Of a stretch of DNA of 64,000 bases, positions 34,424 through 40,692 are shown one piece after another (within the stretch, counting starts at the first letter, position 1; each line of letters opens with the position of its first letter). Under the pieces are notes generated by a model. It was not told the origin of the DNA, searched no databases, and saw nothing but the letters and a program-made list of their open reading frames with translations. Made by a program: the position numbers and the translations under genes. Source of the stretch: Roseovarius sp. (GTDB taxonomy: Bacteria > Pseudomonadota > Alphaproteobacteria > Rhodobacterales > Rhodobacteraceae); contig NZ_JAUCYU010000013.1 in NCBI RefSeq assembly GCF_030373445.1, positions 62,001-126,000 on the forward strand, written 5' to 3'.

Positions 34424-36319
34424 TCAGCCGACCAGCCCGCCATCCTCGCGCCAGACCACCACCACCGACGAGCGCGGCAGCTTGCCCTCGCCGTCGGGGA
34501 AGGGCGCGTCGGGGTGCTGGATGCCCACGAACATCGCCGTCCGGTCCGCCGACCACGTGAGCCCGGTCACTTCCGAGCCCTTGGGCCCGGTCAGGAAGCG
34601 CGCGATCTCGCCCGTCACCGGGTCGCCCGCCAGCATCTGGTTGTTGCCCATGCCCGCGAACTCGCCCTCGTTGCTGTCATCGCCATCGGTCTGGATCCAG
34701 ACCAGCCCGGCGCTGTCGAAGGCCATCCCGTCGGGCGAGTTGAACATGTTGCCGTTCGTCACGTTCTCCGAGCCGCCATAGACGTTCTTGTACACGTCCG
34801 GGTTGCCCGCCATCACGTAGAGATCCCAGTCGAACGTATCGGCGGCATGATCGTCCTCATGCGGCCGCCAGCGCACGATCTGGCCGTAATTGTTGGTCTC
34901 GCGCGGGTTGGGCCCGTTCACCGGCGTCTCGTCACCGCCCGCATTGGGCTTCACGCCGCGGTTCTTGTTGTTGGTCAGGCAGCAATAGGCCTCGACGGCA
35001 TGCGGGTTGGCGGCGATCCACTCCGGCCGGTCCATCGTCGTGGCGCCCACCTTCGAGGCCGCCATCCGGGCGAAGACCAGCACCTCGGCAAGGCTTTCCA
35101 TGCCGGTGCTCTCCGGCGTCAGCGCCAGCCACTGGCCAGTGCCGTCATCGTTGAACTTCGCGGCATAGAGCGTGCCCTCGTCCAGCAGCCCCCCGGTCGA
35201 CCCGCCCGGCGCATAAGCCGCGTTTGAGACGAAGCGATACATGAACTCGCCCCGCTCGTCGTCGCCCATGTAGACCACCACGCGCCCGTCGGGCGCCAGC
35301 ACCACCTCGGCATTCTCGTGCTTGAAACGGCCCAGCCCGGTATGCTTGACCGGCGTGCTCTCCGGGTCCGCCGGGTCGATCTCGACCACCCAGCCCGCGC
35401 GATGCGGCTCGTTGGGGTTTTTCGCCGTATCGAACCGGTCATCCCACTTGTGGTAATCGTAGCCCCAGCCATCGGCCCCGATCCCGTAGCGCTCGTACCC
35501 GGCCTGCACCGCCTCCGGCACGTCACCCTCGGACGTGGCACCGAAATACCCGTTGAAGTTCTCCTCGCAGGTCAGGTAGGTGCCCCACGGCGTCTTGCCC
35601 GAGCCGCAATTGTTGTACGTGCCAAGGCTCTCGGTCCCGCTCGGGTCGGCCTCGGTCTTGAGCAAGTCATGCCCGGCAGCAGGCCCCGCAAGGGTCATCG
35701 GCGTCAGATGCGTGATCCGCCGGTTATACGGGCTGTCGACCACGACGCCCCAGCCACCCTCGCCCTTCTCGATCTCCATCACCGTCACGCCCTGCAGCTT
35801 CTGCAGCTTGCGCACGTCGTCGAGGCTGGCGGGCACGCCTTCCCCGGTCTGCGGCAGGTTGATCTCCTGGTTGGTGTATTCGAGGTTCACCGCGATCAGC
35901 TCGTGCCCGTCATGCACGAAGCTTTCCATCCCGTCGGTGTTCTCTCCGAACACCCGGTCGGCGCTCTCGGCATCGCCGCCGGTCTCGTGGTCGAACGCCG
36001 GCGCGTCGGAAAACAGCGGATCGCCCCAGCGCACCAGAACGTCCCAGCTGTAGCCCTCGGGCACATGCACCGTGGCATCGGTCTGCGCCCCGATCGGCGT
36101 GAAGGCAAAGCGCGAGACTTCCATCGCCTCGGCGGCCGAGCCCAGCAGCTGCGCCGTACCCATCGCCGCGGCGCCCGAGCCGAAGGCCATCACCCCGCCA
36201 AGGAAGCCCCGCCGCGAAAGCGCACGCTCGACCACCTCGTCGAAATCGCACCCCTCGGGGCGCGGGTCGTTCAGCTCGTCCCACTCGTCGGCGGATATCC
36301 GGTTTCCCTGCGCGTCTTT
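34424..36319 (-). CDS. PhoX family phosphatase (DUF839), Tat-exported
   Basis: SRRGFLGGVMAFGSGAAAMG Tat motif; TYNNCGSGKTPWGTYLTCEENFNGYF, NPHAVEAYCCLTNN, NSPDGMAFDSAGLVWIQTDGDDS; ORF can extend to 36367. Confidence 0.93.
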   Translation of the reverse strand, partial: KDAQGNRISADEWDELNDPRPEGCDFDEVVERALSRRGFLGGVMAFGSGAAAMGTAQLLGSAAEAMEVSRFAFTPIGAQTDATVHVPEGYSWDVLVRWGDPLFSDAPAFDHETGGDAESADRVFGENTDGMESFVHDGHELIAVNLEYTNQEINLPQTGEGVPASLDDVRKLQKLQGVTVMEIEKGEGGWGVVVDSPYNRRITHLTPMTLAGPAAGHDLLKTEADPSGTESLGTYNNCGSGKTPWGTYLTCEENFNGYFGATSEGDVPEAVQAGYERYGIGADGWGYDYHKWDDRFDTAKNPNEPHRAGWVVEIDPADPESTPVKHTGLGRFKHENAEVVLAPDGRVVVYMGDDERGEFMYRFVSNAAYAPGGSTGGLLDEGTLYAAKFNDDGTGQWLALTPESTGMESLAEVLVFARMAASKVGATTMDRPEWIAANPHAVEAYCCLTNNKNRGVKPNAGGDETPVNGPNPRETNNYGQIVRWRPHEDDHAADTFDWDLYVMAGNPDVYKNVYGGSENVTNGNMFNSPDGMAFDSAGLVWIQTDGDDSNEGEFAGMGNNQMLAGDPVTGEIARFLTGPKGSEVTGLTWSADRTAMFVGIQHPDAPFPDGEGKLPRSSVVVVWREDGGLVG

Positions 36320-36456
36320 CATGGCTGGCATCTCCCTTGCTTCAAAGACTGTCTGTCCCTCCTGCATTGGGTGATTCCTGTAAAATCCATGTGTCCCTTT
36401 TCATCAAACCCGCCCCGGAGCCGAAAAATCCCCGCCTTGCGCGGAATGACGCCGCC

Positions 36457-36639
36457 TCAGGTACAGCGCACCCCCGCCTCCACCAGCTCGAACGCCACGA
36501 TCTCGAACTCGTAGAGCGCGCTGTTATCCGCCCGCATCGCCCGCGCGATCAGCCGGCCCTCGGCGTCGTGATAGACCGCGTGCGCCGTGTGCAGCGCCCG
36601 GTAGCAATGGTCGCCGTTGGGATAATAATACTTGATCAT
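36457..36639 (-). CDS. Small protein of unknown function (60 aa)
   Basis: MIKYYYPNGDHCYRALHTAHAVYHDAEGRLIARAMRADNSALYEFEIVAFELVEAGVRCT; compact, codon-typical ORF. Confidence 0.55.
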   Translation of the reverse strand: MIKYYYPNGDHCYRALHTAHAVYHDAEGRLIARAMRADNSALYEFEIVAFELVEAGVRCT

Positions 36640-36844
36640 GCCGCTCTCCTTCGCTTCGGGCCATCTCTCCCCCTTTCCTACCCCCGCCCCCTGACAACCA
36701 TTGTCGGCATACCCCGCTCCCGCGCAACATCCGGAAAGAAAACCCGCCGCCCTGCGACATTTTTTTCACCAACACCCCCATGACAGCGGTTGACGGGTCC
36801 CGTCCCCCGCCATAATGTCCCGCGCACGCAGACAGGAGCTTCCG

Positions 36845-36895
36845 ATGATCGGTTCGATCGTAATTCTGGTAGGTAAATGGCGCATGGGCCGGTAA
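36845..36895 (+). CDS. Branched-chain amino acid attenuator leader peptide MIGSIVILVGKWRMGR
   Basis: AGGAG SD at 36834-36838; I-V-I-L-V run; followed by mutually exclusive hairpins and terminator before ilvI. Confidence 0.85.
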   Translation: MIGSIVILVGKWRMGR

Positions 36896-36920
36896 CGGAC
36901 ACCATAACGGTACCCCATGC

Positions 36921-36945
36921 GCCCCCGAAACTCGGGGGCTTTTTT
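36921..36945 (+). terminator. Attenuator terminator (GCCCCCGA-AAC-TCGGGGGC-TTTTTT)
   Basis: 8-bp perfect stem plus T-run, overlapped by alternative stem 36879-36888/36914-36923. Confidence 0.88.
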
Positions 36946-36985
36946 ATGCGCAGCGACAGACACGTCATAAACGGAGCAAATCAAG

Positions 36986-38743
<1,758 letters not shown>

Positions 38744-38768
38744 TGACCCACTCTCACCCACCCTCCCC

Positions 38769-38790
38769 CGTAGGGTGGGTGAAACCCACC
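38769..38790. repeat. Intergenic hairpin repeat family 2, copy 2 (CGTAGGGTGGGTGAAACCCACC)
   Basis: Shares core and palindrome with 1765-1791. Confidence 0.75.
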
Positions 38791-38816
38791 ACCTTGCCCC
38801 CGCCCGACTGGTCCCC

Positions 38817-38838
38817 CGCAGGGTGGGTGAAACCCGCC
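38817..38838. repeat. Intergenic hairpin repeat family 2, copy 3 (CGCAGGGTGGGTGAAACCCGCC)
   Basis: 48 bp downstream of copy 2. Confidence 0.7.
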
Positions 38839-38876
38839 AACCCTTCTCGCCTTAGCGCCGCCCAAGGACCCGCCGC

Positions 38877-40118
38877 ATGACGCCCCACGCCGCCGCAGAC
38901 GCCCGTCTCGCGATCTTCGACAGCCGCCGCGGCTGGCAGCTCGGCCTGCTGGGCGCGGTGGTGACGGTGATGCTGGGGGCGATCTTCATCATCGGCGGCA
39001 TCGTCGAGGTCAACAACACCGATCTGATCTCGGTTTCGGTCGATTTCTACGTCTTCTGGGCCGCCGCCAAGCTGGCGCTCCAGGGCCTGCCCCTCGACGC
39101 GTTCGACGTCACCCGCATCGCCGAGATGGCCGCCGTCACCCATGACGACTGGATGCCCTGGGCCTATCCTCCGGGCTTCCTTCTGCTGGTGATGCCGCTG
39201 GGCCTCCTGCCCTTCGCCCCCGCCTGGGCAGTGTTCATGGCCGTCTCCTGCGCCGCCCTGCTGCTGGCCACCCGCCCCTTCGCCGCCGGTCGCACGCAGG
39301 TGCTGCTCGGCGCGGCGCTGGCCCCCGCGATCCTGCCCTGCCTGCTGGTCGGCCAGACCACCATCCTCTGGCTCGCCGGGCTGATGGCCGCGCTGGCCGC
39401 GCTCCGCGCCGAAAGACCGATCCTCGCCGGCGCCTTCATCGGCCTGCTGACGCTGAAACCCCAGCTCGGCCTGCTCATCCCCTTCGCCCTCATCGCCGCC
39501 GGCCAGTGGCGCGCGATCGCCTCGGCCGCCGTGACCACCCTCCTCCTCGCGGCCATTCCCACCGCGCTCTTCGGCACCGCCTACTGGCCCGAGATGCTCG
39601 CCATGATGCGCGAGCATGGCGACACCGTCCGCAACGCAATCGCCGATCTCAACCTGATGATCAGCGCCTACGCCACCCTCACCTTCATGGGCCTCGCCGA
39701 AACCACCGCGCTGGCCGCCCAATGGGCCCTCACCGCCCTCTGCGCCGCCGCCGTCTTCCTGACCTGGCGCCGCCCCTCCATCTCCTTCGACCTGCGCGCC
39801 GCCACGCTGCTCTGCGCCATCCCGCTCGCCTCGCCCTACCTGTGGCACTACGAATCCGCCCTGCTCGCCCCCGCCGCCCTCTTTCTCACCCGCGCCGGCG
39901 TGGTCACGCCGGGGCGCCCCCTCACCGTGCTCCTCGGCCTCGCCATGTGGCTCAGCCTCGGCCCCTCGGCCCTCGTCCTGCTCAAGTCCGGCGCGGCCGA
40001 TGTCTTCCGCCCGGTCTTCCTGCCCCTCGCGTCGATCGCGCTTCTCACCTGCCTGTGGCACGCCCTGCTCAGGCCCCGCCCTGCGGCCACGCCGGCCACC
40101 CCCGAAGAAACCCACTGA
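38877..40118 (+). CDS. Glycosyltransferase family 87 (DUF2029) membrane protein
   Basis: Multi-TM, SVDFYVFWAAAKLALQGLPLDAFDV...MPWAYPPGFLLLVMPLGLLP. Confidence 0.82.
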   Translation: MTPHAAADARLAIFDSRRGWQLGLLGAVVTVMLGAIFIIGGIVEVNNTDLISVSVDFYVFWAAAKLALQGLPLDAFDVTRIAEMAAVTHDDWMPWAYPPGFLLLVMPLGLLPFAPAWAVFMAVSCAALLLATRPFAAGRTQVLLGAALAPAILPCLLVGQTTILWLAGLMAALAALRAERPILAGAFIGLLTLKPQLGLLIPFALIAAGQWRAIASAAVTTLLLAAIPTALFGTAYWPEMLAMMREHGDTVRNAIADLNLMISAYATLTFMGLAETTALAAQWALTALCAAAVFLTWRRPSISFDLRAATLLCAIPLASPYLWHYESALLAPAALFLTRAGVVTPGRPLTVLLGLAMWLSLGPSALVLLKSGAADVFRPVFLPLASIALLTCLWHALLRPRPAATPATPEETH

Positions 40119-40131
40119 AGGACCAGACCCA

Positions 40132-40692
40132 ATGTCAGCGCTCAAGATCAAGAAAGGCTCGACCAAGCATTCCGCCTACAACCTGCGCCCGACCTTCTCC
40201 GACAAGGCCGAGACGCATACGCTGGCGGTGATCGTCGACAACGAACCGGGCGTTCTGGCCCGCGTCATCGGCCTCTTCTCCGGCCGCGGCTACAACATCG
40301 ACAGCCTCACCGTGGCCGAGGTCGACCATACCGGCCACATGTCGCGCATCACCATCGTCACCACCGGCACGCCACAGGTGATCGAACAGATCAAGGCACA
40401 GTTGGGCCGCATCGTCGTCGTCCACGATGTCCACGACCTCACGGTCGAGGGGCATTCCGTCGAACGCGAGCTGGCGCTCCTGAAAGTGGCGGGTGAAGGG
40501 GAAAAACGGGTCGAGGCCCTGCGCCTTGCCGACATCTTCCGCGCCAACGCGGTCGACAGCACGCTCAACAGCTTCGTGTTCGAGATCACCGGAACGCCGC
40601 AGAAGATCGACGCCTTCGCCGATCTCATGCGGCCCCTCGGCCTGACCGAGATCGCCCGGACAGGCATCGCCGCGCTCTCGCGCGGCGCCTGA
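40132..40692 (+). CDS. ilvH: Acetolactate synthase small (regulatory) subunit
   Basis: HTLAVIVDNEPGVLARVIGLFSGRGYNIDSLTVAEVDHTGHMSRITIV ACT domain; symbol ilvH or ilvN. Confidence 0.95.
   Translation: MSALKIKKGSTKHSAYNLRPTFSDKAETHTLAVIVDNEPGVLARVIGLFSGRGYNIDSLTVAEVDHTGHMSRITIVTTGTPQVIEQIKAQLGRIVVVHDVHDLTVEGHSVERELALLKVAGEGEKRVEALRLADIFRANAVDSTLNSFVFEITGTPQKIDAFADLMRPLGLTEIARTGIAALSRGA

Follow-up and report, generated by a model that had tools for sequence, protein, structure and literature searches.

The sequence preceding ilvI in Roseovarius sp. very probably encodes a ribosome-mediated transcription attenuator, in which translation of a short leader peptide with a run of Ile, Val and Leu codons would decide whether transcription proceeds into the gene for the large subunit of acetolactate synthase. 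Within the 64,000-nucleotide stretch of DNA analysed here (the window), an earlier note had described an attenuation leader of the acetolactate synthase operon, and this description was borne out: the AGGAG sequence, the leader ORF, its I-V-I-L-V codons, both stems and the terminator with T6 were all checked and agree base for base, and the downstream gene proved to be ilvI, with ilvH further on (Table 1). Three features were absent from that note, namely the limit of the stem overlap to three bases, the placement of the stop codon within a small hairpin of the antiterminator, and the occurrence of homologous leaders before an MFS gene.

Table 1. Features of the ilvI leader and associated genes (positions in the window)
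Feature	Position	Strand	Basis
Putative -35-like hexamer TTGACG	36790..36795	+	Letters; TTGAC recurs at the equivalent place in most relatives' leaders
Putative -10-like hexamer TAATGT, 17 bases after the -35	36813..36818	+	Letters; TA...T-type hexamer recurs in relatives
Shine-Dalgarno sequence AGGAG of the leader ORF	36834..36838	+	Sequence
Leader peptide ORF MIGSIVILVGKWRMGR, 16 residues, stop TAA	36845..36895	+	Sequence; start codon equivalently placed in 66/74 relatives
Control codons ATC GTA ATT CTG GTA (Ile-Val-Ile-Leu-Val)	36857..36871	+	Sequence and relatives
Antiterminator 5' arm GGCGCATGGG, within the leader ORF	36879..36888	+	Sequence, folding, covariation
Small hairpin CCG-GUAA-CGG, stop codon in loop	36889..36898	+	Folding and relatives
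Second small hairpin of the three-way junction formed by the antiterminator, ACC-AUAAC-GGU	36901..36911	+	Folding
Antiterminator 3' arm CCCATGCGCC	36914..36923	+	Sequence, folding, covariation
Intrinsic terminator GCCCCCGA (36921-36928)-AAC-TCGGGGGC (36932-36939), then T6 (36940-36945)	36921..36945	+	Sequence, terminator scan, pairing in relatives
ilvI, acetolactate synthase large subunit	36986..38743	+	NF006581, 1136.3 bits (cut-off 974)
ilvH, acetolactate synthase small subunit	40129..40692	+	NF008864, 219.9 bits

As read from the sequence, the short ORF, with its Shine-Dalgarno sequence and with control codons specifying the amino acids that the pathway produces, has the appearance expected of an attenuator, as does the location of an intrinsic terminator between this ORF and the structural gene. 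The T-run is separated from the ilvI start by 40 bases, and when the 300-base region was scanned for terminators, two sites were reported, among them the ilvI terminator, versus 0.3 expected in shuffled sequences. Because a consensus scan of the region reported no strong promoter, and did not report the TTGACG-N17-TAATGT pair, whose conservation was judged by eye, the promoter position is one that we infer.

Decisive evidence that the leader is real comes from its conservation, as the element adjoins ilvI in most genera of the Rhodobacteraceae. The family was sampled with 121 genomes, one per genus, all of which were found to encode IlvI; upstream regions were fetched for 99 ilvI loci of the family, plus others from other families, and a covariance model (R1) was built from an alignment of 75 leaders. 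When match positions were compared with those of ilvI, R1 was found to match just upstream of this gene in 102 of the 121 genera. Three further genomes (G289, G292 and G296) carried a match at another gene rather than at ilvI, a fourth (G381) carried a weak match elsewhere than at ilvI, and the R1 search gave no match in the remaining 15. Strong matches were also obtained in two genomes outside the training set (G022 and G252), that in G252 being located upstream of ilvI. In the Roseovarius genome itself, all further R1 matches had E values of 0.05 or worse, and none was counted as an extra copy. One genome (G312) was observed to carry two ilvI copies (L038 and L052), each with its own leader of the main type.

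Both stems were shown to be maintained across these relatives. Terminator pairs were kept in 99.6 % of cells among 75 relatives, with three pairs changed on both sides and values that none of the shuffles reached; antiterminator pairs were kept in 93 % of cells, with nine two-sided cells versus 1.3 in shuffles, none of which scored as high. For most measures, the two-sided changes of terminator and antiterminator exceeded those of every one of 500 shuffles. The covariation of the outer antiterminator stem is modest because this stem varies little within the family, being nearly invariant within the main group. The hairpin around the stop codon was paired in 88 % of cells, with both-sided changes at two of its three pairs, and divergent ilvI leaders were found to carry quite different stems at the corresponding position, such as GCGCAGTCGC/GCGACTGCGC in L043 and GCGCGCGTGAC/GTCACGCGCGC in L296. 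The earlier note had named a lack of conservation of the leader codons or of the alternative stem among the findings that would speak against an attenuator; both are conserved across the family.

Codon identities were counted in 74 leaders with the frame anchored on the stem, such that peptides were not chosen, and with positions counted before the CGC of the stem. Ile, Val or Leu codons occupy positions -8 to -4 in 67, 74, 70, 68 and 68 of the 74 leaders, respectively, and only 2, 4 and 2 leaders have such a codon at the three positions that follow; the start codon is located at position -11 in 66 leaders. The synonyms employed in this five-codon block were strongly skewed, with GTA accounting for 98 of the 195 codons for Val, CTA for 37 of the 89 for Leu and ATT for 32 of the 63 for Ile. 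The corresponding frequencies of GTA, CTA and ATT were 1.1, 0.7 and 7.2 % in 40 long, script-chosen ORFs of the window, and 3.8, 2.0 and 18 % in the ilvI genes of 30 relatives. According to attenuation theory, regulatory codons are picked among synonyms for their sensitivity to starvation (PMC1183508). The codon after the run specifies Gly in 46 of the 74 leaders, mostly as GGA (37 of the 46), while in the window it is GGT (36872-36874) rather than the rare GGA that is usual in relatives; a Gly codon after the run was also seen in MFS-linked leaders with differing stems.

The antiterminator element was predicted to fold as a three-way junction, in which a 10-bp outer stem encloses two small hairpins. 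Its folding energy is lower than expected by chance (z = -2.35, with two of 200 shuffles as good), while the full leader alone is unexceptional (z = -1.27). A three-way junction of the same type was predicted in 44 of 74 relatives, and in 45 of the 74 folds the stop codon was predicted to lie in or at such a hairpin loop. An alternative stem overlapping the 5' arm of the terminator had been proposed previously; the overlap is real, yet the emphasis placed on it requires correction, as it comprises only three bases (36921-36923) in the window and two to three in all leaders of the main type. The mutual exclusion of the two stems is consequently thin. Inspection of the window leader by eye gave no alternative antiterminator sequence that would pair better with the 5' arm of the terminator. 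In the folding model, the formation of the antiterminator is nevertheless predicted to exclude the terminator base pair, a thin exclusion that is mostly absent in the divergent ilvI leaders.

To what extent the stems overlap varies among the leader types. In most non-rhizobial MFS-linked leaders, with some exceptions, three to six bases are shared between the stems, whereas in most of the divergent ilvI leaders no bases are shared and the stems abut or stand one to four bases apart (non-overlapping examples are L043, L059, L062, L076, L087, L089, L090, L093, L181 and L296). In leaders of the Atu_C8 type (see below), six to eight bases lie between stem and terminator. For divergent ilvI and Atu_C8-type leaders, the terminator was modelled as closed at any ribosome position, with few exceptions, such that the standard switch does not operate in the model; these leaders still possess the Ile/Val/Leu run, the stem and the terminator. 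Divergent leaders without overlap between stem and terminator represent a natural set for asking what the minimum job of the antiterminator is.

The effect of a translating ribosome was modelled by occlusion folding, in which, for the window leader, 15 bases from the first P-site base were masked and the pair C36922-G36938 served as readout. With the A-site placed on codons 6, 7 and 8, the predicted probability of this terminator base pair was 0.08, 0.15 and 0.22, respectively; from codon 9 to the stop it was ~1.0 (15-nt leading edge). Across 69 leaders modelled with leading edges of 11-13 nt, the last four run codons had a mean probability of 0.21-0.30 (about 0.23), compared with 0.75-0.83 for the codon after the run, followed by a slight rise; with a 15-nt edge, the flip occurred one codon earlier, so that the last codon of the run was already past the switch. 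Stalls upstream of the run gave modelled terminator probabilities of 0.5-0.8, and stalls on the first codons gave intermediate values. With no ribosome present, equilibrium folding gave a mean terminator probability of 0.35 (median 0.21), which predicts mostly read-through for a leader that is not translated, in contrast to the classical trp design. No protector (1:2) hairpin of the classical trp type, which is not required of every attenuator, was evident by ribosome-free folding. The model combines equilibrium folding with an assumed footprint and no kinetics, and in it part of the transcripts still terminate during a stall. Within this model, the switch occurs where the Ile/Val/Leu run ends, which supports the classical scheme and the earlier proposal that a ribosome stalled at the Ile/Val/Leu codons, as opposed to one reaching the stop codon, would leave the antiterminator free.

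The following mechanism is proposed. A ribosome would translate the leader peptide behind RNA polymerase and, when charged Ile-, Val- or Leu-tRNA is scarce, would stall on codons 5-9. Such a stall would leave the 5' arm of the antiterminator free, allowing the 10-bp antiterminator to form and to take the three base-proximal nucleotides of the terminator, upon which transcription would proceed into ilvI; derepression would thus be expected upon starvation. A ribosome that has moved past the last Val codon would instead cover the 5' arm, such that the terminator would close and transcription would be expected to stop at the T-run in vivo. This represents a specific and testable model of acetolactate synthase control in a large, mostly marine bacterial group, down to the codon at which the switch would flip.

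A structured and conserved leader with a terminator would also fit control by a metabolite riboswitch or T-box, in which case the small ORF would be incidental. The conservation of both the reading frame and the codon identities argues against such control of ilvI, and a search of positions 36000-38000 against Rfam 15 (E up to 5) returned no riboswitch or T-box match; this identity was accordingly rejected and is almost certainly wrong. In Rfam, a meaningful score for the leader was obtained with the rhizobial family Atu_C8 (RF02502) alone, at 23.7 bits and E = 0.087, below the gathering cut-off of 50, and no match to the leader exceeded its cut-off. The window leader and Atu_C8 have in common a terminator, a stem formed by GCGCATGGGC...CCCATGCGC, a stop codon within an inner hairpin, and a small ORF that is rich in Val and ends in ..RMG..; unlike the window leader, Atu_C8 precedes a Bcr/CflA MFS gene and has its stem and terminator separated (by the six to eight bases given above).

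Since Atu_C8 is annotated as an sRNA, the element might function chiefly in trans, as a terminated small RNA, with control of ilvI being secondary. The GCGCATGG/CCATGCGCC arms are conserved in sequence and not merely in pairing, and the Sinorhizobium meliloti trp attenuator RNA rnTrpL has been described to act in trans (PMC10117765), both of which are in keeping with this idea. It is, however, very improbable as the main role, given that the element immediately precedes ilvI in 102 of 121 genera and that its control codons, stop codon and stem are kept in a fixed register, for which a pure sRNA would have no use. Roles as an sRNA and as an attenuator are compatible and not exclusive. Loci above the Rfam Atu_C8 cut-off were found to lie upstream of the same Bcr/CflA transporter and to encode Val-rich peptides ending in RMG-type motifs, exemplified by ..VSVVVGRRMGKAA; Atu_C8 has the look of a leader of the attenuator type, be it in place of a free sRNA or in addition to one. 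Such loci comprise L002 and L098-L102 (above the RF02502 cut-off), as well as L209, L210, L222, L247 and L270.

The association with this transporter extends beyond Atu_C8. A class-wide search with R1 yielded matches in other families (E 5e-17 to 4e-6), and twelve of these loci were read (L110-L121), all of which were located upstream of a Bcr/CflA-type MFS transporter gene; four MFS proteins from these loci were tested, and all scored above the TIGR00710 cut-off. Of the weak class-wide matches (E ~2e-4 to 0.01), part was inspected; those read proved to be common terminators at unrelated sites and were discarded. A named search identified leaders before the Bcr/CflA transporter gene in Kiloniellaceae, Minwuia, Hwanghaeella, Pelagibius and Devosia, and also in Rhizobium lusitanum, R. 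sullae and a few Rhodobacteraceae. Further MFS-linked homologous leaders were observed at L141, L143, L149, L289, L201, L202, L206, L208, L216, L231 and L256, among others, and together with L110-L121 these span many alphaproteobacterial families.

Of 20 genomes selected mostly because they carry the MFS leader or gene, 19 showed no comparable Ile/Val/Leu leader upstream of ilvI; the exception (G296) has an ilvI leader of another type. Strict exclusivity, with the leader at either ilvI or the MFS gene, had been suggested by G289, G292 and G296, and was rejected as G374 carries the module at both genes. The closest Bcr/CflA homologue in the Roseovarius genome (L174) has no such leader upstream. 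R1 scores ranged from 33 to 69 bits for non-rhizobial MFS leaders and were mostly 12-30 bits for divergent ilvI leaders of the Rhodobacteraceae, with intermediate ones reaching 58 bits. By these scores, the main-type ilvI leader resembles MFS leaders from other families more closely than it does the most divergent ilvI leaders within its own family; R1, being trained on main-type leaders, favours the main type, but not MFS over ilvI.

Taken together, we tentatively propose, at slightly less than even chances, that a single leader-RNA family is common to two unrelated genes across the Alphaproteobacteria, namely ilvI in most Rhodobacteraceae and the Bcr/CflA MFS gene in other families, including the Atu_C8 loci. 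Its hallmarks would be the Ile/Val/Leu run, the Gly codon, the RMG-type C-terminus, the GCGCATGG/CCATGCGCC three-way junction, the stop-codon hairpin and an abutting terminator. If this is correct, Atu_C8 would be the product of a valine/branched-chain attenuator, the transporter would join the branched-chain response, and members without stem overlap would switch otherwise than by strand exclusion. The homology would in this way assign a candidate function to a catalogued 'sRNA' and give an initial hint of the signal to which the transporter responds. In a literature search for which most subscription papers were out of reach, no mention was found of a link between the leader and the MFS transporter or Atu_C8.

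The presence of homologous leaders before an efflux gene in other families also bears on a different reading of the ilvI leader, whereby it senses a general slowing of translation, caused for example by ribosome-targeting drugs, and the identity of its amino-acid codons is incidental. Attenuators that respond to drugs and control multidrug transporters are known: bmrB-bmrCD of Bacillus subtilis, in which ribosome-mediated attenuation involves rare leader codons, provides a parallel for the MFS-linked leaders, although it controls an ABC transporter, has an unrelated leader and responds to a drug signal (PMC4191407). Sensing of general slowing is nonetheless quite improbable for the ilvI leader, where the block is confined to Ile, Val and Leu, the rare synonyms are found exactly at the modelled switch, and the controlled gene encodes the first enzyme of the Ile/Val pathway. 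Attenuation in response to branched-chain aminoacyl-tRNA supply is the reading retained here.

Attenuators of ilvIH in alphaproteobacteria were reportedly predicted by Vitreschak et al. in 2004, and the window leader belongs to this predicted class. In PMC2573895, an S. meliloti ilvIH element is listed with Vitreschak et al. 2004 as reference. The Caulobacter crescentus ilvBN/ilvIH attenuator (Tarleton, Malakooti and Ely 1994, as cited in PMC4117421) likewise belongs to an alphaproteobacterium and the same operon, and has tandem Ile/Val codons in a leader that is followed by a terminator, the leader CDS being shown in Fig. 6C of PMC4117421. This likeness concerns codons and terminator, while the GCGCATGGG element is a feature of the window leader that was compared within our own set. 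Attenuation of the ilv operon is already established in Caulobacter, and was reportedly predicted for alphaproteobacterial ilvIH in 2004. The window leader represents a well-supported addition to this class, and no Rfam family covers it above cut-off. The E. coli ilvGMEDA, ilvBN and leu leaders are similarly rich in branched-chain codons and involve a terminator/antiterminator choice (PMC6123439); unlike these leader peptides of about 28-32 residues, that of the window has 16, with no protector hairpin evident and a three-base overlap of the stems.

Downstream of the leader, positions 38877-40118 between ilvI and ilvH contain a gene for a hydrophobic protein of 413 residues, probably a multi-pass membrane protein, for which no NCBIfam match was obtained (E up to 1e-20). 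Between ilvI and this gene (38765-38840), the inverted-repeat motif AGGGTGGGTGAAACCCaCC occurs twice, and a motif resembling it was observed near the MFS gene of L147.
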